NCBI GenBank assembly: GCA_026399735.1
Contig: JAPLQK010000022.1
Location: 1 to 33,503, forward strand
DNA from: Pseudomonadota bacterium
GTDB taxonomy: Bacteria > Pseudomonadota > Gammaproteobacteria > Burkholderiales > Gallionellaceae
Length of the DNA stretch: 33,503 bases
Direction: 5' to 3'
Both the position numbers and the translations under genes were made by a program. Under the pieces are notes generated by a model, which did no database searches, was not told the DNA's origin, and worked only from the letters and a program-made list of their open reading frames with translations. Positions 3,335-15,524 of this stretch are shown here, one piece after another (the stretch's first letter is position 1; every line of letters starts with the position of its first letter).

Positions 3335-4591
3335 ATGACAAATCTTGCAGAACGCGCCATTGCGGCCGAAAACACCCTCAGGCAACAGGATCTTGCCAGA
3401 ATGAAATGGATCGCCGCCGGATTGCTGGGGCTTGCCGCCTGTCTGTATATTTTAGGCAAAGTGCTGGCCTGGGGCTATCTGGCTGCTTTTGCCGAAGCGT
3501 CGATGATAGGCGCGCTGGCGGACTGGTTCGCCGTGGTCGCGCTGTTCCGTCATCCGCTGGGTATTCCCATTCCTCATACCGCGATTGTGACCCGGAACAA
3601 GCGCACGATCGCAAACAGTCTGGCGGATTTTGTGGTAGGGCAGTTTTTGAGTGCACAGGTCATCGGGCAACGACTCAAGCGCTACGATGCTGCGCGCCAC
3701 CTGTCGCAATGGTTGCCCGCGAATCGGGAAAAGGTGGCGGGTTATCTTGGCCGTGCCATCGCATATGGCGTGAAATCGCTGGATGACAGGCGTATCCATG
3801 ATTTTATTGCCGAAGCTGCCCGCAACAAGTTGCAAAGCATCGATCTGTCGGGTTTCATGGCGAGCGGACTCGAACTGGTCACGCGTGGCGGGCGGCATCA
3901 TAAAATTCTGCACGGCGGGCTGAACCGTTTCGCCGACTATGTGGAGAGCACCGATAATACGGAAAAAATTTCCGCATTTATCAAAGGCTGGAGCGATAAC
4001 GCCTTCGTGCAAAGCATGATTGAGCCGTTCGTGCCGACGATACGCACGGCGGTCGTCAACAAGCTGCGCGAAGTGGCGGAGGATGAAACCAACGGCCTGT
4101 ATCTGGAGTTCGACGAACAGGTGAAAAGCTATCTGTTGCGGTTGCAGCAGGATGCCCAATTGCAGGAGTGGGTGACGGTGCAAAAAAATACCTGGCTTAA
4201 TCATCCCGGGTTCGGTCATCAGATTGAATCGTTGTGGAATCAGCTGCGCGACTGGGTGGTGCTCGATCTGTCGCATCCTGAATCGGCGATTGACGCAAAA
4301 ATTATGAATCTGCTCGGTGAACTGGAGCAGCATCTTGCCGGCAACATTGAGATACGCGCGTGGATCAACGAGCAAATTCAGGCCGCGCTGATCCAGGCGG
4401 CGAATGCCAACAAGGGGATGGTCGGGGACCTGATCCGCGAGGAGTTCGGCAACTGGGACGATCGCTACATGGTCGATAAACTGGAACTTTATCTGGGTCG
4501 TGACCTCCAGTACATCCGCATCAACGGCACGCTGGTCGGCGGACTGTTCGGGTTGCTGATTTATACGGTAACGATGCTGCTGGCAGGTTAG
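3335..4591 (+). CDS. DUF445-family membrane protein (YjiN-like)
   Basis: A 418-residue protein of the DUF445 family. A hydrophobic N-terminal hairpin (about residues 24-75) contains the family signature EASMIGALADWFAVVALFRHPLG, where the GALADWFAV core is diagnostic. A long, mostly helical soluble region follows, and a final TM helix (about residues 398-417, GTLVGGLFGLLIYTVTML) ends the protein, so it is anchored at both ends. The function of the family is not known. It is divergent from the EVE gene across about 200 bp of AT-rich DNA that should hold both promoters. No strong Shine-Dalgarno sequence is visible before the ATG. Confidence 0.88.
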   Translation: MTNLAERAIAAENTLRQQDLARMKWIAAGLLGLAACLYILGKVLAWGYLAAFAEASMIGALADWFAVVALFRHPLGIPIPHTAIVTRNKRTIANSLADFVVGQFLSAQVIGQRLKRYDAARHLSQWLPANREKVAGYLGRAIAYGVKSLDDRRIHDFIAEAARNKLQSIDLSGFMASGLELVTRGGRHHKILHGGLNRFADYVESTDNTEKISAFIKGWSDNAFVQSMIEPFVPTIRTAVVNKLREVAEDETNGLYLEFDEQVKSYLLRLQQDAQLQEWVTVQKNTWLNHPGFGHQIESLWNQLRDWVVLDLSHPESAIDAKIMNLLGELEQHLAGNIEIRAWINEQIQAALIQAANANKGMVGDLIREEFGNWDDRYMVDKLELYLGRDLQYIRINGTLVGGLFGLLIYTVTMLLAG

Positions 4592-4620
4592 CACCTGCTG
4601 GAAATAGTGGATAGCAACCT

Positions 4621-5097
4621 ATGGAATCGTGGAAATTCGAAAGCAATTCCGGCAAGCAGACCGCGCTGGCGCTGGCTTGTATTGCGGCGGGCATCATCCT
4701 GGCAATGGGTTTTCGCCACTTCGATGCATCGGGCATGACTAACAGTCTGGCGGGGTTTTTGTTGGGGATGATGTTGCTTCTTATCGGTATCTCTGCGTTT
4801 TTGGCGGGGGGAAAACAAACCATCGTCGTCGATCCGAAATCTCGCCGTATTGTTGTCGAAGACACGAACCGGTTCGGGGTGAAAAAACGATTTATTTTAT
4901 TCGGCGACATCGTTGATACCGGTATAGGCTATTTCGGCAAGCGGTCGAATGATGTCAATTTCTATTACATCGTCCTTAAACTCAGAAGCGGCGAGAAATA
5001 TCCGCTGTTCGCACCAGGGCGTTTCTATGAGGGCGGGTCGGACAGGCAAGTCATGGAAAACCGACGGCAGCGTCTTGAAGAGTGCATCAGGCAGTAG
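4621..5097 (+). CDS. Small membrane protein of unknown function
   Basis: A 158-residue protein that I do not recognise by family. It has two predicted TM helices, about residues 14-30 (ALALACIAAGIILAMGF) and 43-65 (LAGFLLGMMLLLIGISAFLAGG). A soluble part rich in beta-strand-like sequence follows (TIVVDPKSRRIVVEDTNRFG, YYIVLKLRSGEKYPLF), resembling small PH-like membrane proteins, though that is only an impression. It lies 29 bp after the DUF445 gene and may be co-transcribed. Its stop codon lies just 2 bp before the target duplication of the IS66 transposon, so the insertion spared the coding region but may have removed its native terminator. Confidence 0.7.
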   Translation: MESWKFESNSGKQTALALACIAAGIILAMGFRHFDASGMTNSLAGFLLGMMLLLIGISAFLAGGKQTIVVDPKSRRIVVEDTNRFGVKKRFILFGDIVDTGIGYFGKRSNDVNFYYIVLKLRSGEKYPLFAPGRFYEGGSDRQVMENRRQRLEECIRQ

Positions 5098-5099
5098 CC

Positions 5100-5107
5100 G
5101 TTGATGT
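5100..5107. repeat. Left target-site duplication (8 bp) of the IS66 transposon
   Basis: GTTGATGT at this position is repeated exactly at 12346-12353, directly outside the two inverted terminal repeats. Eight base pairs is the known target duplication length for IS66-family elements. Confidence 0.95.
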
Positions 5108-5123
5108 GTAAGCGCCAATTTCT
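5108..5123 (+). repeat. Left terminal inverted repeat of the IS66 transposon
   Basis: The sequence GTAAGCGCCAATTTCT is the exact reverse complement of 12330-12345. Pairing continues weakly after one mismatch (three more matching C positions). Confidence 0.95.
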
Positions 5124-5187
5124 CCCCGCCTTCCAATTAGCCTGGTAATCAACGAACATCCCTCATAACTTAAATTCGGGGTGTCAG

Positions 5188-5592
5188 ATGGAACGTGATC
5201 AACGAACAGCAAAGTGGTTGGAACATTTAAGAGTTTGGCATAAAAGTGGAGCAACGCAAGCAGCTTATTGCAAAAAAAATAGTTTGCACGAAAAAACCTT
5301 CTCCAACTGGAAACGACGACTCCGCGATCACTTTCCCAGTCTTCCTAAACTGACCAATTCAACAATTGTTTCACCAAATCCAGTTGCCCCCTTCGTGGCC
5401 GTAAACCTAATCGACGATCTTATTCCTCAAACGGCAAAGCGGTTGGAACAGGAAGTTCAGACGGCAGACTGCGCTGGAAAAGCATCAGGCATAAACTTAT
5501 CAGTGGGCGGCAAATATCACATTTGTGTCTCGACTGATTTCGATAGCGCAGCACTTGGGCGTGTATTGGCGGTTTTAGCTGACGCCTCATAA
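5188..5592 (+). CDS. tnpA: IS66 accessory protein TnpA
   Basis: A 134-residue protein of the IS66 TnpA (OrfA) type, needed together with TnpB for transposition, probably as a DNA-binding accessory. The N-terminal helix-turn-helix-like stretch WLEHLRVWHKSGATQAAYCK followed by KNSLHEKTFSNWKRRLR is typical of the family. The C-terminal half ends with the usual small domain (GGKYHICVSTDFDSAALGRVLAVLA). The gene begins 80 bp inside the left end. Its TAA overlaps the ATG of tnpB by one base (TAATG), indicating translational coupling. Confidence 0.9.
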   Translation: MERDQRTAKWLEHLRVWHKSGATQAAYCKKNSLHEKTFSNWKRRLRDHFPSLPKLTNSTIVSPNPVAPFVAVNLIDDLIPQTAKRLEQEVQTADCAGKASGINLSVGGKYHICVSTDFDSAALGRVLAVLADAS

Positions 5593-5942
5593 TGTTCGAC
5601 ATTATCGCACAGCAGGTTTGGCTCGCTTCGGGGGCAACCGACATGCGCAAATCCATCGACGGACTGGCCGCCATCAGCAGCTACGTGCTCAAGCAGAATC
5701 CTATGTCACAGCACCTGTTCGTATTTTGCAGCAAAGATCAGACAAAAATCAAAATTCTTTATTGGGATCGCAACGGCTTTTGGCTGTTCTACAAACGATT
5801 AGAAAAAGGCCGTTTCCGCTGGCCGGTCGCCAGCGGTGCTGCGTTGAGTATCAGTCGTCGCCAATTGGCATGGCTTTTGGATGGGCTTGCTGTCGAGCAG
5901 AAACAGGCACACTGCCCTGTAAATGTCGAAATTGCGATTTAA
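5592..5942 (+). CDS. tnpB: IS66 accessory protein TnpB
   Basis: A 116-residue protein of the IS66 Orf2/TnpB family. Diagnostic stretches are VWLASGATDMRKSIDGLAAI, FVFCSKDQTKIKILYWDRNG, and GFWLFYKRLEKGRFRWP, ending in LSISRRQLAWLLDGL. Length is normal for the family, so the gene seems intact. In ordinary IS66 elements tnpC follows almost at once. Here a toxin-antitoxin pair and two intergenic spacers intervene, so tnpC is uncoupled from tnpB. Confidence 0.93.
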   Translation: MFDIIAQQVWLASGATDMRKSIDGLAAISSYVLKQNPMSQHLFVFCSKDQTKIKILYWDRNGFWLFYKRLEKGRFRWPVASGAALSISRRQLAWLLDGLAVEQKQAHCPVNVEIAI

Positions 5943-6032
5943 TCAGCGTCATTCAAGATTACACCCATGCCGGGCATATATTACGATTTCAAGTCAGCGG
6001 AAATATTTGGATGTGCAACACCGCTATGCTGC

Positions 6033-6061
6033 TTGCTATCTAAATCAATTTTAATTACACT
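6033..6061 (+). promoter_or_regulatory. Possible sigma70 promoter for the toxin-antitoxin pair
   Basis: TTGCTA (6033-6038) and TACACT (6056-6061) are separated by 17 bp in an AT-rich stretch, 29 bp upstream of the antitoxin ATG. A competing -10 (TAGTAT/TATAAC) lies just downstream. A strong ribosome site (CGGAGGTG) sits before the start at 6091. The call is by eye only. Confidence 0.4.
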
Positions 6062-6090
6062 TTAGTATAACTTTATTTCGGAGGTGTATT

Positions 6091-6348
6091 ATGCACACCA
6101 CAAATCTGCGCAGGGTCGGCGGCTCAGTCATGCTGGCTGTCCCTCCAGCATTCCTTGATCAGCTGCACTTACAAGCCGGGAACACCGTAGGCATGGTCGT
6201 CACTGATGGTCGTCTGGTCGTTAATCCCAAGCCACGGACGCGCTATACGCTCGCCGAGTTGCTTGCCGCTTCCGACTATTCACAGCCGCAATCGGCTGAA
6301 GAACGCGAATGGGTCGATGCGCCTGCCGTGGGTGGTGAGTTGATATGA
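6091..6348 (+). CDS. MazE/ChpBI-like antitoxin (AbrB-fold)
   Basis: An 85-residue protein with a swapped-hairpin AbrB/MazE DNA-binding domain at the N-terminus: LRRVGGSVMLAVPPAFLDQL, then GNTVGMVVTDGRLVVNPK. The acidic C-terminal tail (SAEEREWVDAPAVGGELI) is the part that would mask the toxin. It has its own strong ribosome binding site and its end overlaps the toxin start by 4 bp (ATGA), the usual coupled arrangement. By family knowledge it should bind its own promoter and neutralise the downstream endoribonuclease. It lies inside the transposase operon, between tnpB and tnpC. Confidence 0.88.
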   Translation: MHTTNLRRVGGSVMLAVPPAFLDQLHLQAGNTVGMVVTDGRLVVNPKPRTRYTLAELLAASDYSQPQSAEEREWVDAPAVGGELI

Positions 6349-6671
6349 ATCGGGGTGATATTTATCTGGTTTCGCTTGATCCAACCGAAGGGCACGAACA
6401 GCACGGAAGCCGCCCTGTTCTGATCGTATCTCCGGGCGAGTTCAACGAAGCCACCAAATTGCCGGTAATCTGCCCGATCACGAGCGGCGGGGATTTCGCA
6501 CGTCGCATTGGGTTTGCTGTTCCTATTACCGGCATCAAAACAACAGGTGTTGTTCGTTGCGACCAGCCGCGCGTGCTTGATCTTGCTGCTCGCAATGCGC
6601 GCAAGGTGGATACTTTACCAACGTCCATTATGGACGAAGTATTGGCAAAACTTGCTCCAATTTTTGAGTGA
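6345..6671 (+). CDS. MazF/PemK/ChpBK-family endoribonuclease toxin
   Basis: A 108-residue MazF-type toxin that cleaves mRNA at short sequence motifs. The N-terminal signature MNRGDIYLVSLDPTEGHEQ and GSRPVLIVSP is diagnostic. The EGHEQ..SRP form matches the ChpB branch more than MazF proper. Other family stretches are PVICPITSGGDFARRIGFAV, GVVRCDQPRVLDLAARNARK and the C-terminal LPTSIMDEVLAKLAPIFE. Length is normal and no key region seems missing. With its antitoxin it could act as a maintenance device for the transposon by penalising loss of the element; this role is inference. Confidence 0.92.
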   Translation: MNRGDIYLVSLDPTEGHEQHGSRPVLIVSPGEFNEATKLPVICPITSGGDFARRIGFAVPITGIKTTGVVRCDQPRVLDLAARNARKVDTLPTSIMDEVLAKLAPIFE

Positions 6672-6736
6672 ATTGCCGCTGTAATCCTTCCCAATGATGT
6701 GGAATATTTGAAGTGAAAATTCATTGAAATACGCAC

Positions 6737-6764
6737 TTGACTCAATGCTGTCTTGGTTTATATT
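6737..6764 (+). promoter_or_regulatory. Strong candidate sigma70 promoter immediately before tnpC
   Basis: TTGACT (6737-6742) and TATATT (6759-6764) are separated by 16 bp. The -10 box ends six bases before the tnpC ATG at 6771, so transcription would start at or next to the start codon and give a leaderless or nearly leaderless mRNA. Confidence 0.55.
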
Positions 6765-6770
6765 CGTGGT

Positions 6771-8486
6771 ATGACCTCCGTAGACATACCTCAGCCCACA
6801 GTATCTTATTCGGTTAGCGAAGAGACGCGTGCGGCTTTTGCAGCGGAATTTATAACAGATGCGCCAGATGGCTACTATGTCGAATCCGGCCCTAATATGG
6901 ATCAGATCACGCTCATCAATGTTTCCAAGGGGTTTCGTTTCTCGGTTATTTTCGACAAGGACGACGGCACCTGTTTTTACCCGATGCTGATTAATGCCGT
7001 GATGGACATGGGTAGAAATGCCGGACAAGTAAGTTTGCTTGAGCAGGAAAACAAGCTGCTCAAGGAGCAACTGGCAATCGCTCGCCAGAATCAGTTTGGC
7101 ACCAGCTCTGAACAACAGCGCTTACCGGAAAATATTGAACCCGTCGATGTTCAACAGGCTGAACCAGCAGCCCAGCCTGACTCACCAAAACTGAGGCTGG
7201 TGAGCAATGCAGGACGAAAACCTTTACCACCGCATCTGCCACGGGAAGAAGTAAAGCACACGCTGCCTGAATCGGAATGCACCTGCGCCTGTTGCAATGG
7301 CCGGATGTCCAAGATTGGCGAGGACATAACTGAGCGAGTGAAATATATCCCTGCGCGCGTCGTTGTGACAAAGCACCTGAACGCCAAGTACGTTTGCCGA
7401 AAATGTGACCGCTTTATCACCGCCTCCGTACCAAAATCAATGGTGCCCGGCAGCAACTATGGCAGCCCGGAATTCCTGGCTCAAATCGCCTGCTCAAAAT
7501 ATCAATTCGGCTTGCCCTTCTATCGTCAGGAAACGTTATTCGCTCAGGCTGACTTGTCTATCAATCGCACAACGTTATCCAATTTGATGATCACGTGTGC
7601 TGACAGGCTGACGGCGCTTCATCTGGCCTTGAAAGACGAACTGTTGTCGCAACGCATCATTCACGCTGATGAAACAACATTTCAGGTATTGAAAGAAACG
7701 GATCGCAAGGCAGAATCGAAATCTTATGCTTGGCTGTTCCGTAGCGCCGCCAGCGCTTCACATCAGGTGGTCCAGTTTGAATATCAGCCAACGCGCGCAG
7801 GTGAACACCCCAGAACATATTTGCAGGGTTTTAAGGGGTATCTGCATGTTGATGGATATGCAGGGTATAACAACATTCCAGATACGTTGCGTGTCGGCTG
7901 CATGGCGCATGTACGCCGCAAATTTGTGGAAGCCGCCAAGGTTATTCCTGAAAAATATACGGAGCATGCCCATGCACAACAAGCCATCAAGCTGATAGGC
8001 CAACTATATGGCATCGAAGAAAAGCTGAAGGGCGAACACCACAAAATCAAATTCGAAGTACGACACAAGGACAGTATGCCGATCCTGCTAAACCTCAAGA
8101 AATGGCTGGATGATATGAAACCCAAAGTATTGCCGAAGAGCGCACTGGGCAAAGCCATTGGTTATGCAACCGAGCAGTGGCCTACGGTACTCCGCTATGT
8201 TGACGACGGCGAGCTTGCCATCGACAACAATATTGCCGAGCGTTCGATTAAGTCATTCGTCATCGGGCGCAAGAACTGGCTATTTGCTGACAGTGTGGAC
8301 GGCGCTTATGCCAATACCGTTATGTACAGCCTGATCCAGACGGCAGTAGCGAACAAACTCGACCCATACAAATATTTGATTCACGTTTTTGAAACCATGC
8401 CAAACTTGCATGCTCCCGAAGCTATCAAGCTGCTACTACCGTGGAATGTCAGGCTGGACGAAACATTGGAGCTGCTTGCGGCATAG
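6771..8486 (+). CDS. tnpC: IS66-family DDE transposase TnpC
   Basis: A 571-residue IS66 transposase. A leucine-zipper-like helix (SLLEQENKLLKEQLAIAR) is followed by an IS66-type zinc-finger region (CTCACCNG and YVCRKCDRF). The DDE core has catalytic candidates D300 (HADETTF), D361 (LHVDGYAGYN) and E490 (DNNIAERSIKSFVIGRKNW). The C-terminal IS66 tail (DPYKYLIHVFETMP...LLPWN) is complete. I choose the ATG at 6771; an in-frame TTG lies at 6753, but its mRNA start would have to be further upstream than the best promoter allows. There is no good Shine-Dalgarno sequence. The N-terminal about 80 residues before the zipper are longer than in many IS66 transposases. Confidence 0.95.
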   Translation: MTSVDIPQPTVSYSVSEETRAAFAAEFITDAPDGYYVESGPNMDQITLINVSKGFRFSVIFDKDDGTCFYPMLINAVMDMGRNAGQVSLLEQENKLLKEQLAIARQNQFGTSSEQQRLPENIEPVDVQQAEPAAQPDSPKLRLVSNAGRKPLPPHLPREEVKHTLPESECTCACCNGRMSKIGEDITERVKYIPARVVVTKHLNAKYVCRKCDRFITASVPKSMVPGSNYGSPEFLAQIACSKYQFGLPFYRQETLFAQADLSINRTTLSNLMITCADRLTALHLALKDELLSQRIIHADETTFQVLKETDRKAESKSYAWLFRSAASASHQVVQFEYQPTRAGEHPRTYLQGFKGYLHVDGYAGYNNIPDTLRVGCMAHVRRKFVEAAKVIPEKYTEHAHAQQAIKLIGQLYGIEEKLKGEHHKIKFEVRHKDSMPILLNLKKWLDDMKPKVLPKSALGKAIGYATEQWPTVLRYVDDGELAIDNNIAERSIKSFVIGRKNWLFADSVDGAYANTVMYSLIQTAVANKLDPYKYLIHVFETMPNLHAPEAIKLLLPWNVRLDETLELLAA

Positions 8487-8543
8487 TTTTTTGCCCTCGC
8501 GTTGGCCGTTTGCACACTGGCAACCTGAACTGCCTTCCGCTCC

Positions 8544-8945
8544 CTATTGGTAAATGGCTTCCCATCCTGTTTCTGTTTTAACAAATCTAATGCTATAAAT
8601 ATGAGGTTTCTGAACAGTCTTTGTCGTATCGAATATCCTGGGATCTGCTCTTGATTCTGTCACTTTAACGTCACATGAAAAACCTGGTTTATCTTTAGCC
8701 GTAACGCATGCAATTTTTTCAGCCGATATTAGCTCGGCCCATCGAGAACCTTGCTTGATATATTGAGCCTTTAAAGTATCACTAACCTCGGTGGCAGTGG
8801 GTTCTGAAGAACCCAAACAACCCGTCAAAAGCACGGCAATAGATAAAAGGCAAAGCGATCTTTTCTTAAAATCTCCTTTGAATGGACTGGTGGTTGAGGT
8901 GGGTTTTGTTACTTTACCCAAGCGCTTTTTCCTTGATCGCATCAA
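8544..8945 (-). CDS. Putative lipoprotein, unknown function (transposon cargo)
   Basis: A 133-residue frame containing a lipoprotein signal sequence: KKRSLCLLSIAVLLTGC, with lipobox LTGC. A soluble part of about 90 residues follows with two cysteines (IACVTAKDKPGFSCDV). The start is uncertain: the ATG used here gives an unusually long, basic n-region of nearly 30 residues and overlaps the upstream SHOCT gene by 32 bp. The best ribosome-site-like sequence (AAAGGAG) lies inside the frame, just before the signal peptide, but no in-frame ATG follows it. I do not recognise the family. It is the last gene of a minus-strand cargo operon. Confidence 0.65.
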   Translation of the reverse strand: MMRSRKKRLGKVTKPTSTTSPFKGDFKKRSLCLLSIAVLLTGCLGSSEPTATEVSDTLKAQYIKQGSRWAELISAEKIACVTAKDKPGFSCDVKVTESRADPRIFDTTKTVQKPHIYSIRFVKTETGWEAIYQ

Positions 8946-9156
8946 ACTCTTTCTGGTTTATTGCGCCGGCTTCAAGCAAATCTTTGGCATTTTTGAGGTC
9001 TGTAAGCGAGTGTCCGGCTTCGCTGCCTTTTTTGTAAGATTTGTAGGCCAGCCACCAAAAAAAAGGGAGTGTTATCGGCCATAGGGGAATAATCAGCCCA
9101 AGGGCAAAGTACATAATTGTTGAAAACTTTATGGTATTGGTTTGCTCTTTTGCCAT
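8914..9156 (-). CDS. Small membrane protein with C-terminal SHOCT domain (transposon cargo)
   Basis: An 80-residue protein. One hydrophobic hairpin (about residues 10-38, IMYFALGLIIPLWPITLPFFWWLAY) is followed by a SHOCT-type short C-terminal domain: LTDLKNAKDLLEAGAINQKEFDAIKEKAL. SHOCT domains are often found at the ends of bacterial and phage membrane proteins and may mediate oligomerisation; the specific role is unknown. The ATG at 9156 has GGAGAG upstream. It sits between two putative lipoprotein genes on the same strand, so the three may act together at the envelope. Confidence 0.75.
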   Translation of the reverse strand: MAKEQTNTIKFSTIMYFALGLIIPLWPITLPFFWWLAYKSYKKGSEAGHSLTDLKNAKDLLEAGAINQKEFDAIKEKALG

Positions 9157-9198
9157 TTTGAAATCTCTCCGGGGTTATCTTGAAATGTCGTATGCTGA

Positions 9199-9840
9199 TT
9201 ACTTACCTATGGACGCCAGAATTTTGCCGCCGATCCCGGCACCGATCATTTCAGCGTACTCAGCCTGACTTTTTTGGCTATTGATCCCAACGTCATATTC
9301 CAATGCGCCATCAAAAGACTGGAATGTTTTCGCGCGACAAGAGAGCATTTCGATTGTCCAATTTTCCTTGAAGGTTACTCGACCAGCTAAAGTCCCAATG
9401 AAGCCGCTTTTGCTACTGTCGGTCTTAGTGATGCGCCCCAACAGTGCCAAATCGGTTTGACGTGAACTGCACAGTTTTTGCAGGTGATTGCGACGTTCAG
9501 AACCTGTCATCTCACCGGCAGTAACCCGGTCGAGCTTGACGATGTAGCCGCCTCGCTTTTCAAATACGTCAGCCACTTTTATGGCAGTCGGGTCGGCTGC
9601 CACGATGCCCATGTATTTGGCATTCAAAAAGGCGTTGCGCACATCACTGGTAAAAGTTTTATCGTCAATTGTGGTCTGGATCGTACTTTCGCGTGCGCCA
9701 TTAAGGTTGGTTGCGGCTGGTATGGCAAGACTGGCAACCGCACAGCCGCTCAATATTACCGCCGAGGCGCAGACGCCAATGGTTCTTATATATCCCGGAA
9801 TCGAGAATCTGTTTTGAACCGTTTTCCTTTGTGGCTGCAT
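9199..9840 (-). CDS. Putative lipoprotein, unknown function (transposon cargo)
   Basis: A 213-residue protein with a signal sequence and lipobox (TIGVCASAVILSGCAVASLA; Cys33), so probably a lipid-anchored envelope protein. The mature part has no family I can name; it is mixed alpha/beta in composition, with a two-cysteine stretch (LQKLCSSRQTDLALLGRI) and a glycine-rich C-terminus (MIGAGIGGKILASIGK). The start has GGGATGAG upstream. It is the first gene of the minus-strand cargo operon and is divergent from the XRE gene. Confidence 0.7.
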   Translation of the reverse strand: MQPQRKTVQNRFSIPGYIRTIGVCASAVILSGCAVASLAIPAATNLNGARESTIQTTIDDKTFTSDVRNAFLNAKYMGIVAADPTAIKVADVFEKRGGYIVKLDRVTAGEMTGSERRNHLQKLCSSRQTDLALLGRITKTDSSKSGFIGTLAGRVTFKENWTIEMLSCRAKTFQSFDGALEYDVGINSQKSQAEYAEMIGAGIGGKILASIGK

Positions 9841-9925
9841 TTACTCATCCCCTTATAAGTCAAACACACAACATGGTATCTTTATACATCACATATACAT
9901 CATATCACGTCATAATATAACCCTG

Positions 9926-9981
9926 TGCATCATTCTTGAAATCACCTAATCGCACGACACTTTGCGTCATTAAATGATGCA
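9926..9981. promoter_or_regulatory. Inverted repeat upstream of the XRE gene, possible operator
   Basis: TGCATCATT (9926-9934) is repeated as its exact reverse complement AATGATGCA at 9973-9981, the second copy ending 11 bp before the XRE start codon. The outer flanks CCC and GGG extend the symmetry. The whole 9841-9992 region is the divergent spacer between two cargo operons and is AT-rich, as expected for paired promoters. Binding by the XRE protein is a guess. Confidence 0.35.
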
Positions 9982-9992
9982 GGGGTGGTTGT

Positions 9993-10352
9993 GTGAAAAA
10001 CGAAACTGAAGCCGGCAATAAAAAACTATCCAAGGCAGTCGGTGCTTTGATTGCCACGCGCAGAAAAGCGCTTGGTCTGACGCAAAGCGAACTTGCCGAG
10101 CAGGTCAATATTGAACAGGAAAGCATGTCCAGAATTGAAACCGGGACAATTACCCCTTCGCTTAGCCGATTGGTGTCGCTGGCCGATGCGCTGGATTGTC
10201 CAGTGGAAACCTTATTACGCCCTGCATCGCACAGAAAGCAGGATCAGGCCTTGGTGATGGCGGAGTTGCTTGATGAGTTGAGCAGTGCGGAGCGAGCCTT
10301 TGCGCTCGGTGTGATTAAAGATTTCGTGAGCTTGGTCAAAGCAAAGAAATGA
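9993..10352 (+). CDS. XRE-family helix-turn-helix transcriptional regulator (transposon cargo)
   Basis: A 119-residue protein starting at GTG, with a GGGGTGG ribosome-site-like sequence upstream. The N-terminal HTH_3/Cro-C1 domain (about residues 15-70) reads ALIATRRKALGLTQSELAEQ, then VNIEQESMSRIETGTITPSLSRL and LADALDCPVETLL. The C-terminal part is short and helical (QALVMAELLDELSSAERAFALGVIKDFVSLV). Its stop overlaps the ATG of the next gene by 4 bp (ATGA), so the regulator and the two membrane proteins are probably co-translated and perhaps autoregulated. This operon is the third cargo module of the IS66 transposon. Confidence 0.88.
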   Translation: MKNETEAGNKKLSKAVGALIATRRKALGLTQSELAEQVNIEQESMSRIETGTITPSLSRLVSLADALDCPVETLLRPASHRKQDQALVMAELLDELSSAERAFALGVIKDFVSLVKAKK

Positions 10353-11308
10353 CTATGAGTAAATGGCTGCTAAAAATACGCTGGATACTTTTGGTATTAG
10401 CACTGACTGTACCGCTGTCGTCATTTTCAGGCGAAAATAAAAATCATCATTCCCAAGATGCTCAGCACGCCTCCAATACCGAGAAGCGCGGCACTGATGC
10501 TGATCCTATTGCGATAAAGATACTCCCCGGCCCAGATGCCGAAACCAAGGCCGCAAAAGATGAGAAGTGGCGCGATGAAAAATCGCAAGAAGATCGTGTA
10601 CTTACTAGGGCAATGATAATACTGGCAGGCTTTACCGCTCTCCTCACTGTTTTTACTGGTTGTTTGTGGTGGGTAACTAAAAAGCTTGCTACTGATGCTA
10701 GTGTTACCGCTCAGCGACAAGCTGAAGATATGAAAATGTCCCTCAAACTCGCTGAACAGCAAATGACTTTGGCTGGGCGTCAAGCTGATCTTGCCGAAAA
10801 ACAACATGGACTTCAGCGATGGCAATATCTCGCTACGCACAGACCAAAGCTGATTATTCGTAGAATATGGCTTGATGAGGGGGATGGGGATTACTTCAGC
10901 CAAGGAAGCAGGTGCCCGCAAATCCAATTTAATATCGCGAACATCGGCGGTAGTCTTGCAACAATAATCGAAAGCAATGCAACATTTGCCAAAATAGAAG
11001 GGACTTTCCCTGCCATTCCTCCCTATAGCGTGGACACCAATACAATTAAATGCACAATTCGAGAAGCGGGGCAGTCCGACCCCACGGAAATTCTGGACAT
11101 TGAAGACGTTGAGGTTAGTCGTGACGTAAGAAGTTGGCGTGGCAAAACCATTACTGGCGGTGACAGCAGCCCGTATTATTTTTTGGGCTACATTCAATAT
11201 CGTGACGGCATTGACATTGTAAGACGAATGGCTTTCTGTCGAAGATATAATCCCGCAACCAAACGCTTTGTTGAAATAGACGATCCAGAATATGAATATG
11301 CCGATTAA
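10349..11308 (+). CDS. Two-TM membrane protein with soluble C-terminal domain, unknown function (transposon cargo, first of a pair)
   Basis: A 319-residue protein I cannot assign. An N-terminal hydrophobic segment (about 8-27; uncleaved anchor or signal peptide) is followed by a polar linker rich in D, K and H (28-85), a TM helix (about 88-110, ILAGFTALLTVFTGCLWWV), a coiled-coil-like stretch (MKMSLKLAEQQMTLAGRQAD) and a beta-rich domain (RPKLIIRRIWL, IQFNIANIGGSLATI, YYFLGYIQYRD). The large domain would lie on the same side as the N-terminus. It shares architecture with the next protein and overlaps it by 17 bp. An alternative ATG lies two codons downstream. Confidence 0.75.
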   Translation: MTMSKWLLKIRWILLVLALTVPLSSFSGENKNHHSQDAQHASNTEKRGTDADPIAIKILPGPDAETKAAKDEKWRDEKSQEDRVLTRAMIILAGFTALLTVFTGCLWWVTKKLATDASVTAQRQAEDMKMSLKLAEQQMTLAGRQADLAEKQHGLQRWQYLATHRPKLIIRRIWLDEGDGDYFSQGSRCPQIQFNIANIGGSLATIIESNATFAKIEGTFPAIPPYSVDTNTIKCTIREAGQSDPTEILDIEDVEVSRDVRSWRGKTITGGDSSPYYFLGYIQYRDGIDIVRRMAFCRRYNPATKRFVEIDDPEYEYAD

Positions 11309-12254
11309 TACCTTTCTGGCATCAATTCGCGCATTGCCTCGGACGGGAATGCTTTGGATAATTCTATCGCTGGTATTCATTGGGAATATTTCATATTCAA
11401 TAGCTCAACAACAAAGTCCACAGGGTACAAATACCGTCGAGAAAGAGCAGATAGCAAGTGCAGATCCAAGACAAGCCACAAAGAACATACCAAGCAGCCC
11501 CCCGAAACTGAAGGTTGTAGCGCAAAGCGTCATTTCCGCACCCAGCAGTCCAGTTGATGCAAGTCAGACAAAGTGCCCCGAAAAAAAGCCAGATGAAAAT
11601 TGGGTGGATAAAATCCGGACAGACCCTGTGGCTACTTTTACAGGACTGTTGTTTTTCGCCACCTTCGCTTTGTGGTGGTCTACCAGAAGTTTGGTATTGG
11701 GGGCTGAGGAAACTTCCCGCAAGGAGTTGCGTGCCTACGTTGCCACTGATGATATTTTCTTTGATAGTTATGAGAGCATCAGTCCACTTTCGGCTAGGTT
11801 TGGCGGGCCAAGCACTATTACCAAACACACGAACCAACTCAAAATCGCGATCAAAAACTATGGGCGTACCCCGGCCCATAGACTGACGATCCGCTGCGAG
11901 TGCAGCTTTAACATTCATGATCTCCGATATAAGCATGGTATTACTGAATTGCTTGAAGCTGAACAGATGCTGCATCCTAGCCAGTGTCTCAATTTTTCCA
12001 TCCCAACGGTCGGAGAGTTTCAAGCTATTACCAGCCGCTTTTACGTGATCGGCAACATCCACTACTGCGATATTTACAACCAATGGTGGGTTACTGAGTT
12101 TTGTTACAGGTACGAAGGCGACGGCAGATTCACTCCATACGGAAATCAGAATTGCGAAAGCGGACCATTTAAACAGAGTCCCGATCAGTGTGACGCACAA
12201 CTTACACAGTATGGAAATTTGTCTCTCAAGACAGAACCGCCCAATTTGATTTAG
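11292..12254 (+). CDS. Two-TM membrane protein with soluble C-terminal domain, unknown function (transposon cargo, second of a pair)
   Basis: A 320-residue protein built like its upstream neighbour: N-terminal hydrophobic segment (about 19-38, GMLWIILSLVFIGNISYSIA), a long polar linker with many S, P, Q and K (40-105), a TM helix (about 113-130, FTGLLFFATFALWWSTRSL), then LVLGAEETSRKELRAYVATD. The last stretch leads into a beta-rich domain with QLKIAIKNYGRTPAHRLTIR. The W-T-R-L..GAE.T...LRAYV plus N.G.TPA pattern is one I associate with a widespread group of uncharacterised proteobacterial proteins. Several cysteines cluster at the C-terminus (NCESGPF, DQCDAQL). It ends 91 bp before the right tip of the transposon. 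No function is known to me. Confidence 0.75.
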   Translation: MNMPINTFLASIRALPRTGMLWIILSLVFIGNISYSIAQQQSPQGTNTVEKEQIASADPRQATKNIPSSPPKLKVVAQSVISAPSSPVDASQTKCPEKKPDENWVDKIRTDPVATFTGLLFFATFALWWSTRSLVLGAEETSRKELRAYVATDDIFFDSYESISPLSARFGGPSTITKHTNQLKIAIKNYGRTPAHRLTIRCECSFNIHDLRYKHGITELLEAEQMLHPSQCLNFSIPTVGEFQAITSRFYVIGNIHYCDIYNQWWVTEFCYRYEGDGRFTPYGNQNCESGPFKQSPDQCDAQLTQYGNLSLKTEPPNLI

Positions 12255-12277
12255 GAGTGGCATGCTAGTGTCAGGTT

Positions 12278-12313
12278 TTCGTAATCGTTACGAATTGTGG
12301 CGCCGCGAGCGCC
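12278..12313. repeat. Two small hairpins beside the right transposon end
   Basis: TTCGTAA and TTACGAA (12278-12294) form a 7-bp stem with a 3-base loop. GGCGC and GCGCC (12299-12313) form a second stem with a 5-base loop. They lie 17 bp or more inside the right terminal repeat and could be subterminal transposase-recognition structure or a weak terminator for the cargo operon. Confidence 0.45.
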
Positions 12314-12329
12314 TTGTGACCACGAGGGT

Positions 12330-12345
12330 AGAAATTGGCGCTTAC
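12330..12345 (-). repeat. Right terminal inverted repeat of the IS66 transposon
   Basis: AGAAATTGGCGCTTAC is the exact reverse complement of 5108-5123 and directly abuts the right copy of the target duplication. Confidence 0.95.
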
Positions 12346-12353
12346 GTTGATGT
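12346..12353. repeat. Right target-site duplication (8 bp) of the IS66 transposon
   Basis: GTTGATGT, identical to 5100-5107. Immediately after it, at 12359-12383, the octamer AAATTAGG occurs three times nearly in tandem and leads into the next inverted repeat. Confidence 0.95.
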
Positions 12354-12374
12354 GGGAGAAATTAGGAAATTAGG

Positions 12375-12463
12375 GAAATTAGGGTCAGACTCGATTTAAT
12401 TTTATTTGTATAAAAATCAATATATTGCAATTTTTTGAATAAATCGAGTCTGACCCTAATTTC
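12375..12463. repeat. 24-bp perfect inverted repeat of the GGGTCAGACTCG type
   Basis: The arm 12375-12398 (core AGGGTCAGACTCGATTTA) is the exact reverse complement of 12440-12463, with 41 bp of AT-rich spacer between. From memory, sequences with this GGGTCAGACTCG core recur in many proteobacterial genomes, often near REP-associated (IS200-like) tyrosine transposases. This would then be a non-autonomous repeat; no such transposase is in the window. It could also fold into a long hairpin in RNA from either strand. Confidence 0.8.
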
Positions 12464-12469
12464 TCTGAG

Positions 12470-12501
12470 GGCAATAAAAAGTGCGACCTTCCGGTCGCAC
12501 T
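12470..12501 (-). terminator. Rho-independent terminator of the zapA/6S RNA unit
   Basis: AGTGCGACC and GGTCGCACT form a perfect 9-bp stem with a 4-base loop (12480-12501). On the minus strand it is followed by TTTTTATT. The opposite strand lacks a T run, so it serves the minus-strand transcript. Confidence 0.88.
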
Positions 12502-12511
12502 GAAATTAAAG

Positions 12512-12690
12512 CCCCCCGCCTGTGCCGTTGACCCAGCATCTCGAACCTAAAGGTTCAAGAGGGTCACTTCCCTGCCATATCAGGATCATCCGCAAGGGAC
12601 ATTCACAACAACGGCGTATGAGTCGCGACCTGTAAAGTTACTTGGTTCAAAGAATATATGAGTCTGTCGAACACCGCAGGGGACAACTCG
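12512..12690 (-). ncRNA. ssrS: 6S RNA
   Basis: The stretch directly after zapA on the same strand has the expected place and look of 6S RNA, which binds sigma70 RNA polymerase holoenzyme and damps transcription in stationary phase. On the minus strand it begins near GTCCCCTGCGGTGTTCG and ends near GGCACAGGCGGGGGGC, which can pair as the closing stem. Near the 3' part is the hairpin CTTGAACC-TTTA-GGTTCGAG, like the TTGAACC hairpin of enterobacterial 6S RNA, enclosed by GTGACCC and GGGTCA. A terminator follows. The ends are approximate. The usual neighbour on the far side (a 5-formyltetrahydrofolate cyclo-ligase gene) is not present; repeat and transposon sequence lie there instead. Confidence 0.8.
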
Positions 12691-13290: not shown

Positions 13291-13318
13291 TTGCACTGCG
13301 TGGTGCGCGTGTTAAAGT
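13291..13318 (+). promoter_or_regulatory. Candidate sigma70 promoter of the btuB leader
   Basis: TTGCAC (13291-13296) and TAAAGT (13313-13318) with 16-bp spacing would start transcription around 13325, just before the first conserved bases of the cobalamin riboswitch. Confidence 0.55.
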
Positions 13319-13330
13319 GTGCGCGCTTTG

Positions 13331-13540
13331 AGGTGCTTTACTGCATTGCAGTCAAGTTAAACGGGAAGCAGGTGCGTTGTCAGAGCCGAAAAACAAGTGA
13401 ATTTTCGGCGTCTTCAACAAAGCCTGAGCTGCCCCCGCAACGGTAAGTGAGTGCGGATTTGTCATCATGCCACTGTGAGTCATCATGGGAAGGCGACAAA
13501 TCAAGACTTGCGAGCCCGGATACCGGCCCCACAGCATACG
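13331..13540 (+). ncRNA. Cobalamin (AdoCbl-type) riboswitch
   Basis: The leader of btuB has the conserved cobalamin aptamer landmarks in order: AGGTGCTTTAC, then GTTAAACGGGAAGCAGGTGCG, then GCTGCCCCCGCAACGGTAA (the B12 box region), a GCCACTG segment, GGGAAGGCG, and the closing CGAGCCCGGATACCGGCC. It should shut down btuB and possibly the downstream B12 genes when cobalamin is abundant. The ends are approximate. Confidence 0.95.
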
Positions 13541-13543
13541 AAC

Positions 13544-13621
13544 AGAAGAAGGCGCGGGAGGCGACTTCGTGGCGGCAACACGCATCGCTGTTGTTCGCCG
13601 CCCGCATTTCTTCTGATTTTT
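13544..13621 (+). terminator. Terminator hairpin forming the riboswitch expression platform
   Basis: A long interrupted stem: AGAAGAA (13544-13550) with TTCTTCT (13608-13614), GCGGG (13554-13558) with CCCGC (13601-13605), and GGCGA (13560-13564) with TCGCC (13595-13599). GATTTTT follows at 13615-13621. It lies right after the aptamer, so ligand binding would favour termination before btuB. Confidence 0.75.
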
Positions 13622-13664: not shown

Positions 13665-15524
13665 ATGAATCAAAAGCTTGTCTCTATTGCACTGTTCGGT
13701 GTGATCGCATTCCCGTTTGTTGCCTCTGCTGAAATCGCCAGTCTGGATGAAATTGTCGTGACCGCCACGCGTATGCCGCAGGCGTTGAATAAATCCATCG
13801 CCGACACCAGCGTTTTGAACGAACAGGATATCAAGAAATCCGGCGCGCCGGATGTTTCAACCTTGCTGCGTTCTGTGCCCGGAGTCGAAATTGCACAAAA
13901 TGGTGGGCTGGGTACGATCTCCGCTATCTACATGCGCGGCACCAATTCGAATCAGGTGCTGGTATTGCTCGACGGCGTACGTATCAACTCCGCCACGTTG
14001 GGTTCGACGGCGCTTGAACATATCATGCTGGATAGTATCGAACGCATCGAAGTGGTGCGCGGCAATGTCAGCAGTCTGTATGGTTCGGAAGCGATCGGCG
14101 GCGTAATTCAGCTGTTCAGCAAACAGGGACATGGCGCTCCGGCATTCAATGTCAGTGCAGGCGCGGGTAATCAGGGTGCGCAGCATATGGCGGCGGGGTT
14201 CTCGGGTGCGATGAATGACACCTCGTTCAGCGTGAATGCAGGACGTATCAAAACAGATGGCATATCCACAATGAATCCGCTGCTCCTGACAGGTGCGAAT
14301 CCTGATAAGAATGGCTACGACAATACGACTGTTAACGCACAAATCAAACAGTTCATCAATTCAGATCATGCCTTGACAGCTTCGGTATTCAGCACGCGCG
14401 GCAATAGCTCTTATGATATTTCAGGTTTGCCAACAGCCATCAATAACATCATTGCAAACATCGACAAATTTTCGCTGGCATCCGATGATCAGATAAATGA
14501 AATATGGCACAGTCAACTGCGTCTGTCGCAAGGAACTGACGACAGTCAGACTTTCGGTACCTATCCCGGGCGTTTCCAGACACGGAGCAATCAGATCGCC
14601 TGGCAAAACAATCTAAAGATTGCCCCAGGGCAGCAGCTGAGTTTTTCGGTGGAGAATCTTGGTCAGGCGGTCACTTCCAGCACGCTTTTCTCGCAAACCA
14701 GCCGCAATGTGAACAGCCTGTTGGGCGGCTATGTGGGTGAATATGGCGTTCAGCAAGTGCAATTGAATCTGCGTCAGGATCGTTATTCCGATTTCGGTAC
14801 GGCGAACACGGCTCTGTTGGGTTATGGCGTGTCTTTTGCGGACAACTGGCGTGCGACTGCCAGTATCAGCAATGCCTTCAAGGCGCCGACCTTTGACGAT
14901 ATGTATTGGCCGTTCGCCGATTACGGCTTTGGCTATACTTATGCGGGTAATCCAAACCTGAAGCCGGAACGTTCGGTAAATAAGGAAGCCGGGCTGCATT
15001 ATGCGGCGAATGGACAGCGTGTCGATGCGGTGTACTTTGACAATCGCATTGGCGATCTGATTGTGGGTAACGGCTTGCCTGCGTTGACTTATATCAACAT
15101 CAGTCAGGCGAAAATCAACGGTCAGGAATTGAGCTATGCGGGCGATTTCGGTGATACGCATTTAAGGGCCAGTGCAACTTTCCAGAATCCTTGCGATGCG
15201 ACGACAGGTCAGATTCTGGCGCGCAGAGCCAGGGCGTTTGGCAGATTCGGTGTGAATCAGGACATTGGCGCGGTGAATCTGGGCGCTGAAGTGCGTTACA
15301 GCGGCGTGCGTCAGGATGCCTACTACAATATAAATACATTTGCGAATACTGCGGTCACCTTGCCAGGTTATCAGTTGATGAGCCTGACAGCCCGTTATCA
15401 GATCGACAAGAGTTTGAGTTTGTCGGCGCGTGCGGGCAACCTGTTCAATCGCAGTTACTCCGAAGTGTATGGTTATAACACGCCGGGCCGGACACTGTTT
15501 GTGGGTTTGAATTACCAGCAGTAA
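13665..15524 (+). CDS. btuB: TonB-dependent vitamin B12 receptor BtuB
   Basis: A 619-residue outer-membrane receptor that takes up cobalamins using TonB energy. A signal peptide (residues 1-22, ending VASA) is followed by the TonB box DEIVVTATRM (28-37) and a plug domain with DVSTLLRSVPGVEIAQNGGL and VLVLLDGVRINSATLGS. The motif IERIEVVRGNVSSLYGSEAI then leads into the beta-barrel. The C-terminus NLFNRSYSEVYGYNTPGRTL and FVGLNYQQ is the last barrel strand, although it ends in Gln rather than the usual aromatic residue. The cobalamin riboswitch upstream makes B12 the likely ligand. A terminator after the gene probably limits read-through into btuM. Confidence 0.95.
   Translation: MNQKLVSIALFGVIAFPFVASAEIASLDEIVVTATRMPQALNKSIADTSVLNEQDIKKSGAPDVSTLLRSVPGVEIAQNGGLGTISAIYMRGTNSNQVLVLLDGVRINSATLGSTALEHIMLDSIERIEVVRGNVSSLYGSEAIGGVIQLFSKQGHGAPAFNVSAGAGNQGAQHMAAGFSGAMNDTSFSVNAGRIKTDGISTMNPLLLTGANPDKNGYDNTTVNAQIKQFINSDHALTASVFSTRGNSSYDISGLPTAINNIIANIDKFSLASDDQINEIWHSQLRLSQGTDDSQTFGTYPGRFQTRSNQIAWQNNLKIAPGQQLSFSVENLGQAVTSSTLFSQTSRNVNSLLGGYVGEYGVQQVQLNLRQDRYSDFGTANTALLGYGVSFADNWRATASISNAFKAPTFDDMYWPFADYGFGYTYAGNPNLKPERSVNKEAGLHYAANGQRVDAVYFDNRIGDLIVGNGLPALTYINISQAKINGQELSYAGDFGDTHLRASATFQNPCDATTGQILARRARAFGRFGVNQDIGAVNLGAEVRYSGVRQDAYYNINTFANTAVTLPGYQLMSLTARYQIDKSLSLSARAGNLFNRSYSEVYGYNTPGRTLFVGLNYQQ

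Follow-up and report, generated by a model that had tools for sequence, protein, structure and literature searches.

An IS66-family transposon of 7.2 kb with a toxin–antitoxin pair between tnpB and tnpC and six cargo genes behind tnpC

Insertion sequences are commonly regarded as bare. In the IS66 family, passenger-bearing members form a recognized class, tIS66, which according to one account includes 7 of the 25 Pseudomonas IS66 members in ISfinder; among the Pseudomonas tIS66 elements, ISPa75, of 2,996 bp, has fosZ as its single known resistance passenger (PMC12888890). Toxin–antitoxin (TA) transposons of the Tn3 family carry TA pairs of several families in their transposition block (PMC7157771), and in Acidithiobacillus TA genes are reported close to IS66 (PMC10214660). 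A TA slot within the IS66 genes themselves appeared in none of the titles and abstract openings of the open-access PMC literature searched, which is a weak negative. Here we describe an IS66-family transposon that occupies, as a single unit of 7,238 bp, positions 5108–12345 of a 33,503-nt stretch of DNA (the window) from a Gallionellaceae bacterium (contig JAPLQK010000022.1, assembly GCA_026399735.1) and that carries a mazEF-type pair between tnpB and tnpC.

Like ISPa75, this element has tnpA, tnpB and a DDE transposase gene, a GTAAGCG-type left tip and, within the ends, passengers that follow the transposase gene; unlike ISPa75, it extends over 7,238 bp, holds six cargo open reading frames (ORFs) and a TA pair in the tnpB–tnpC slot, and has a tip sequence that diverges past GTAAGCG. 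With the Tn3-family elements it shares a TA pair set apart from the other passengers and different TA families at one position across relatives; it differs in transposase family and, while the Tn3 pair sits near the res site, no resolvase gene is among the window ORFs. Judged against this literature, the new part looks to be a clade with a TA or antitoxin slot, IS66 passengers as such being already known. The initial annotation of the locus had called cargo-bearing IS66 elements uncommon, a description to be refined, tIS66 being an acknowledged class with 7 of 25 Pseudomonas members (PMC12888890). We consider it probable that the locus is a complete tIS66 that moves in the ordinary IS66 manner and belongs to a small betaproteobacterial clade with exchangeable slot genes and cargo, the TA pair most likely acting as an addiction module and the cargo probably being directed at the envelope.

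Ends, target duplication and transposition genes

The two GTAAGCGCCAATTTCT tips, at 5108–5123 and 12330–12345, are inverted and identical in 16 of 16 bp, and the same 8-mer, GTTGATGT, abuts each of them on the outside (Table 1). Within the window this 8-mer is confined to the two positions flanking the element; because about one chance match is expected per whole window, its placement is informative and its count is not. A perfect 16-bp inverted pair with identical outward 8-mers was found once in the window and in none of 20 shuffles. Tips that open with GTAAGCG and an 8-bp target duplication are traits of the IS66 family, and the presence of passenger genes within IS66 ends, without a second insertion sequence, places the element in tIS66. 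Inside it, the best tip-like site has 5 of 16 mismatches, and the minima of 50 shuffles ran from 2 to 5. Internal tip-like sites thus lie within the shuffle range and give no sign of a nested shorter IS66, a candidate that we rejected.

The reading frames of tnpA, tnpB and tnpC are open, match IS66 models and follow the gene order of the family; an ATG at 6771 is a possible alternative start for tnpC. The acidic residues D306, D367 and E496 of TnpC are invariant across four aligned TnpCs and are probably the catalytic triad. With perfect ends and duplication, intact transposition genes and no internal ends, the initial annotation held up in its claims of 16-bp inverted tips starting GTAAGCG, of a perfect 8-bp duplication, of intact tnpA, tnpB and tnpC and of a complete 7.2-kb IS66 element; the check for internal ends, which would have meant a shorter nested element, turned up no tip beyond shuffle level. 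In the mechanism that we propose, TnpC, as the DDE transposase, would act with the accessory proteins TnpA and TnpB on the 16-bp tips, and insertion would duplicate 8 bp of the target. The ends, the duplication and the genes can be read directly, and from them we infer that TnpABC would drive activity of the element at present. Scans for promoters and terminators stayed at chance level.

These ends also bear on whether the segment 8544–12254 is host DNA that became enclosed by two IS66 ends when neighbouring copies underwent deletion or recombination. Such an origin would agree with the single element copy found in the genome and with the indirect nature of the evidence for movement as a unit; it is nevertheless very improbable, given the perfect duplication at the outer ends, the lack of any remaining internal tip, a sister element with the same layout and its own duplication, and the failure to find the cargo at the same locus in relatives. 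This last result comes from searches of 76 genomes of the genus with the two flanks, of which the left (the DUF445-like gene) matched in 21 and the right (6S RNA and zapA) in 69 (own genome included in both; G034, for the right flank, by a short repeat only). By coordinate comparison, 14 genomes have both flanks less than 4 kb apart on a single contig, at 15 places in all. The gap is 13–70 bp and free of the element in eight of these places, in as many genomes (G033, G098, G011:C66, G065, G063, G003, G031 and G002, the flanks of G003 being matched only in part), and 0.96–3.5 kb in the other seven (G028, G010, G029, G011:C138, G015, G079 and G001). A tblastn search for the 11 element genes had no match in 48 flank loci of relatives, which extend 1.5 kb into the gaps from each side and so leave about 0.5 kb of the 3.5-kb gap in G010 uncovered. 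Cargo genes at this locus in relatives without IS66 ends, the outcome that the initial annotation had named as contrary to its reading, were thus not encountered, and host genes merely flanked by IS66 ends were ruled out as a candidate.

The slot between tnpB and tnpC

In the window the slot holds mazEF, inside the block of transposition genes. The mazE gene lies upstream of mazF and overlaps it by 4 bp, the arrangement of type II MazEF/Kid modules, and the nearest solved structure for the toxin is that of Kid (PDB 1m1f). In its matches to Kid and PF02452 and in the overlapping MazE-type gene the pair is like Kid/PemK (MazF) pairs, and it is unlike them in its position within an IS66 gene block. 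The initial annotation had listed the pair with a lipoprotein/SHOCT operon and an operon of XRE and membrane-protein genes as three cargo modules; all three are present, but the TA pair stands apart from the other two, between tnpB and tnpC.

A pattern scan of genome_contigs for the tip followed by CCC returned 15 stretches, and IS66 genes closely related to the window TnpB or TnpC were reached in four genomes, those of Comamonas testosteroni NFYY023, Comamonas composti DSM 21721, Methylotenera sp. STC_22 and an uncultured betaproteobacterium. Both trees set the window and these kin apart from the control rows. In the TnpB tree the window groups with Methylotenera, C. testosteroni and the uncultured betaproteobacterium (support 99/96, 4 of 35 rows), and in the TnpC tree with Methylotenera and the two Comamonas (support 100/100, 4 of 37 rows, both Comamonas rows being partial); L204, which is C. 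testosteroni again, and the repeat copies L209, L211, L029 and L034 were excluded from the trees. Where clade tips were seen they read CTCCCC on the left and CTACCC on the right, with one tip mismatch at the right end on C. composti contig C3. The C. testosteroni element (L129:560-12087) has both ends and its own duplication, AATGAAAG; it resembles the window element in its identical 16-bp tips, the C or A after the left or right tip, the 8-bp duplication, a gene between tnpB and tnpC and a multi-gene cargo after tnpC, and differs in its length of 11,528 bp, a helix–turn–helix (HTH) gene alone in the slot, a defective tnpC and an unrelated cargo. In C. composti one contig carries the left end and another the right, their CATCTTTG flanks matching, and a third contig holds the 3′ part of tnpC followed by 5.3 kb with cargo up to a right end. 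The recurrence of the same ends at other loci, proposed in the initial annotation, was therefore found together with IS66 genes, but with other cargo.

At the position where the window has mazEF, the Methylotenera element has, together with an HTH antitoxin-like gene, a gene for a RelE-family toxin (PF06296, E = 3e-42), and in the uncultured betaproteobacterium an HTH gene directly follows tnpB. The slot is filled in all three clade members that can be read across the junction, two of which have a toxin gene. For comparison we assembled 38 other IS66 loci (29 from a class search and 9 from earlier), from which a re-encounter of C. testosteroni and three loci with no tnpB found upstream were removed; none of the 34 with a readable junction has a gene between tnpB and tnpC, some of the 34 being copies of the same insertion sequence in the same genome (L189/L209, L205/L211 and L017/L029/L034). 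The called tnpC start lies at most 114 nt past the tnpB stop in 32 of them, and in the remaining two (L197 and L073), which lack a called start, no more than 153 nt separate that stop from the first aligned part of TnpC.

The mazEF pair itself has close relatives in the genus. MazE and MazF are 96/94% and 94/91% identical at the amino acid (aa) level to pairs in two genomes and 80/80% to a pair in a third. In G011 the similarity amounts to 87% over 950 bp; it starts just past where tnpB would stop, spans mazEF and ends at tnpC codon 48, with tnpB and the remainder of tnpC missing. TnpC has an N-terminal extension of roughly 90 aa, whose residues 1–48 match this relic beside mazEF and residues 1–62 a relic that stands alone (G000:C103); of the substitutions in the two relics, 16 of 31 and 22 of 42 are at third codon positions, a bias that suggests that the extension was probably translated. 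On the simplest reading the relics are what decay has left of IS66 elements with mazEF in this genus; alternatively, a mazEF-plus-ORF unit may have been captured by the element. The loci concerned are a mazEF–tnpC start relic in another species (L003, 1482–2449) and a shorter tnpC start relic elsewhere in the window's own genome (contig C103; L002, 1501–1706), both without any other IS66 part.

These relatives are also what gives weight to the alternative that an ordinary IS66 captured a chromosomal mazEF and neighbouring genes by chance, so that neither the TA pair nor the cargo would have a role and the resemblance to kin would be coincidental. The mazEF relatives are far closer than those of tnpC, for which no full-length relative above 57% identity was found in the searches made, and passenger uptake by IS66 is known (PMC12888890). 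What speaks against chance is that the slot is filled in three of three readable members and that tnpB is followed by an HTH gene in a fourth, when 34 other loci have no such gene; the different families in the slot point to repeated replacement and not to one accident. We therefore regard chance capture as doubtful and prefer an exchangeable slot: an antitoxin gene or a TA gene set would be swapped after tnpB and before tnpC among clade members. By analogy with the Tn3-family transposons, the MazEF/Kid-type pair would most likely work as an addiction module, making it costly to lose the element, and its expression may be coupled to that of the transposase genes.

Several observations weigh against an exchangeable TA slot in a mobile element. 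Just three clade members could be read across the tnpB–tnpC junction; in C. testosteroni the slot holds a lone HTH gene and no toxin gene, the HTH gene overlaps the tnpC start as called, and that tnpC is itself defective, with an internal part lost; and in the uncultured betaproteobacterium no tnpC was found in the 3,363-bp contig, the ORF behind the HTH gene being unlike the C. testosteroni TnpC start. The TnpC extension has no significant similarity to the TnpC extension of Methylotenera or C. testosteroni. A slot filled outside the clade was met in a plasmid IS66 (Alicyclobacillus pAACI02), with a small hypothetical gene and another insertion sequence. Close MazEF pairs occur in other species of the genus, and for one of them (L004) no IS66 gene was found alongside, so that the pair may have been picked up locally by chance. 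A search of the element's own genome, from an assembly rated 82% complete, gave the element itself and one short relic and no second copy, and no recent movement was seen there, so that mobility is read from the duplication alone. Finally, the initial annotation had looked to an empty site in a close relative with a single copy of the duplicated 8-mer: the flanks do lie close together without the element in relatives, but no counterpart of the 158-aa ORF next to the insertion (4621–5097) turned up in the flank loci of relatives, so that the empty sites are not exact to the base and a single GTTGATGT was not demonstrated.

Further matches to the tip surround the clade. Solo exact 20-bp tips occur in Limnohabitans T6-20 (L134, ~12622), Rhodoferax U11-2br (L135, ~793) and Ferrigenium straubiae (L136, 579), and in the 40, 44 and 22 kb read around them, respectively, no IS66 gene was found and no partner end with up to 4 of 15 mismatches; these tips may be remnants or passive ends. 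In the first two, large genes that by eye look like Tni-type transposon genes and possible defence genes lie some kilobases from the tip, and the Ferrigenium tip is about 200 bp from a tRNA-Arg gene. Comamonas suwonensis has a right end only, the adjoining ~515 bp being ~90% alike to C. testosteroni. The Paraburkholderia match has IS66 genes that are just 31–39% identical to those of the window, the tip of Ca. Burkholderia pumila is like that of Paraburkholderia, and the matches in Qipengyuania and two Spirochaetes may be due to chance. At an E threshold of 1e-130 the Methylotenera TnpC had no match in 399 genomes of the Comamonas family, a result that shows little because the Comamonas copy is itself broken. 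Peptide patterns of the window TnpC gave no match in genome_contigs. By eye, the Methylotenera element lies 3′ of a DUF4007-like ORF (L133), and its contig ends 630 bp past tnpC in a P-type ATPase-like ORF.

Cargo genes behind tnpC

Between tnpC and the right end the window element has two putative lipoprotein genes and a gene for a small SHOCT-like protein on the minus strand, and genes for an XRE/Cro-type regulator and two membrane proteins on the plus strand (Table 1). The start of the lipoprotein gene at 8544–8945 probably lies within the called ORF. The two membrane proteins are distant paralogues (pairwise E = 9e-6, with 24% identity along the best-matching stretch). Family scans, from which the SHOCT-like protein was left out for NCBIfam and membrane protein 2 for Pfam, gave no cargo matches beyond the HTH gene, the sub-threshold SHOCT motif and weak PHROG matches of two minus-strand proteins, one of them the SHOCT-like protein. 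Homologue searches covered the three larger cargo proteins. Membrane protein 2 occurs in one of the 76 genomes of the genus, the window's own; no homologue was found in plasmids for this protein or the 213-aa lipoprotein, nor in plasmids and phages for membrane protein 1, and none of the three matched viral_contigs in searches that require near-exact peptides. The element DNA had no cargo match in the genomes of 60 other relatives, and among the matches listed against plasmids (20 of 3,031 records) there were only those of the mazEF region.

Table 1 Features of the IS66-family transposon and its flanking duplication (window coordinates)
Feature	Position	Strand	Evidence and remarks
Left target duplication copy, 8 bp, GTTGATGT	5100–5107		
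Left terminal inverted repeat, GTAAGCGCCAATTTCT, then CCCC	5108–5123	+	
tnpA, IS66 accessory protein, 134 aa	5188–5592	+	NF047593 E 9e-14; no Pfam match
tnpB, IS66 Orf2, 116 aa	5592–5942	+	PF05717 E 3e-39; NF033819
mazE-type antitoxin, 85 aa	6091–6348	+	PF04014 E 1e-5; NF052488 E 4e-18, under its cut-off
mazF/pemK-type toxin, 108 aa	6345–6671	+	PF02452 E 2.5e-28; PDB 1m1f (Kid) E 8e-41
tnpC, IS66 DDE transposase, 577 aa from TTG	6753–8486	+	PF03050 E 2e-94; NF033517 E 2e-126
Putative lipoprotein	8544–8945	-	LLTGC lipobox-like, by eye; no Pfam, NCBIfam or PADLOC match; one weak PHROG, E 0.002
Small membrane protein, 80 aa, C-terminal SHOCT-like motif	8914–9156	-	PF09851, 21.8 bits, cut-off 27
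Putative lipoprotein, 213 aa	9199–9840	-	No Pfam, NCBIfam, PADLOC or PHROG match
XRE/Cro-type regulator, 119 aa	9993–10352	+	PF01381 E 9e-13
Membrane protein 1, 319 aa	10349–11308	+	Membrane segments by eye; no Pfam, NCBIfam, PADLOC or PHROG match
Membrane protein 2, 320 aa	11292–12254	+	No NCBIfam, PADLOC or PHROGs match
Right terminal inverted repeat, GTAAGCGCCAATTTCT, then ACCC	12330–12345	-	
Right target duplication copy, 8 bp, GTTGATGT	12346–12353		

The cargo varies between clade members behind a related transposition block. The C. testosteroni element encodes proteins of 1276, 225, 360 and 777 aa, the last with a SEC-C motif, and the C. composti element proteins of 695, 207 and 532 aa; the window cargo proteins had no tblastn match in either element. 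Sequence comparison of the few members thus shows an exchangeable slot and cargo within the clade, and the block between tnpC and the right end would be exchanged as the slot genes are. In the window, lipoprotein and membrane features suggest that the cargo is probably directed at the envelope, as an accessory trait that would stand under its own XRE regulator.

A further possibility is that the cargo operons are an anti-phage or phage-exclusion system and that the element is a defence carrier. Membrane and lipoprotein genes under an XRE regulator would suit a block of infection at the envelope, and sister elements carry defence-like genes: the 532-aa C. composti protein matches VPA1262_N (E = 5e-112) and a PADLOC candidate (VPA1262/PDC-S05), and the 1276-aa C. 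testosteroni protein resembles the anti-phage protein Upx, at 24 bits (E = 4.5e-6) against a curated cut-off of 1900 bits. Among the six window proteins, however, PADLOC matches one, the HTH regulator, through models that contain the HTH domain, and no known defence family was found in the window cargo. We regard a defence function of this cargo as unlikely.

Beyond a complete tIS66 with exchangeable genes, we put forward tentatively, at something short of an even chance, that a distinct IS66 clade is a modular carrier, with a fixed slot for swappable TA genes that act as an addiction module and with interchangeable blocks behind tnpC, some of them defence-like and the lipoprotein and membrane-protein operons of the window among them. 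If so, IS66, like Tn3 and Tn7, would carry selfish and defence functions, and whether TA pairs stabilize or regulate transposition could be probed in a second transposon family, independent of the first.

Insertion locus and neighbouring features

The target duplication starts 2 bp past the stop of the 158-aa ORF. Further to the left lies a DUF445-like gene (3335–4591), and to the right a 6S RNA gene (12509–12685, minus strand), followed by genes that are presumably zapA- and zapB-like. The interval from the DUF445-like gene to the 6S RNA (window 4591–12509) is an insertion-prone spot; the larger gaps at the seven corresponding places in relatives hold other ORFs. A palindromic repeat, TTAGGGTCAGACTCGATTTA with its reverse complement (12379–12459), begins 33 bp beyond the right end of the transposon and is probably a small dispersed element, since similar short copies lie on other contigs of the same genome and in relatives. 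Further downstream, a cobalamin riboswitch (13314–13545) precedes an ORF (13665–15524) that by eye is TonB-dependent receptor-like.

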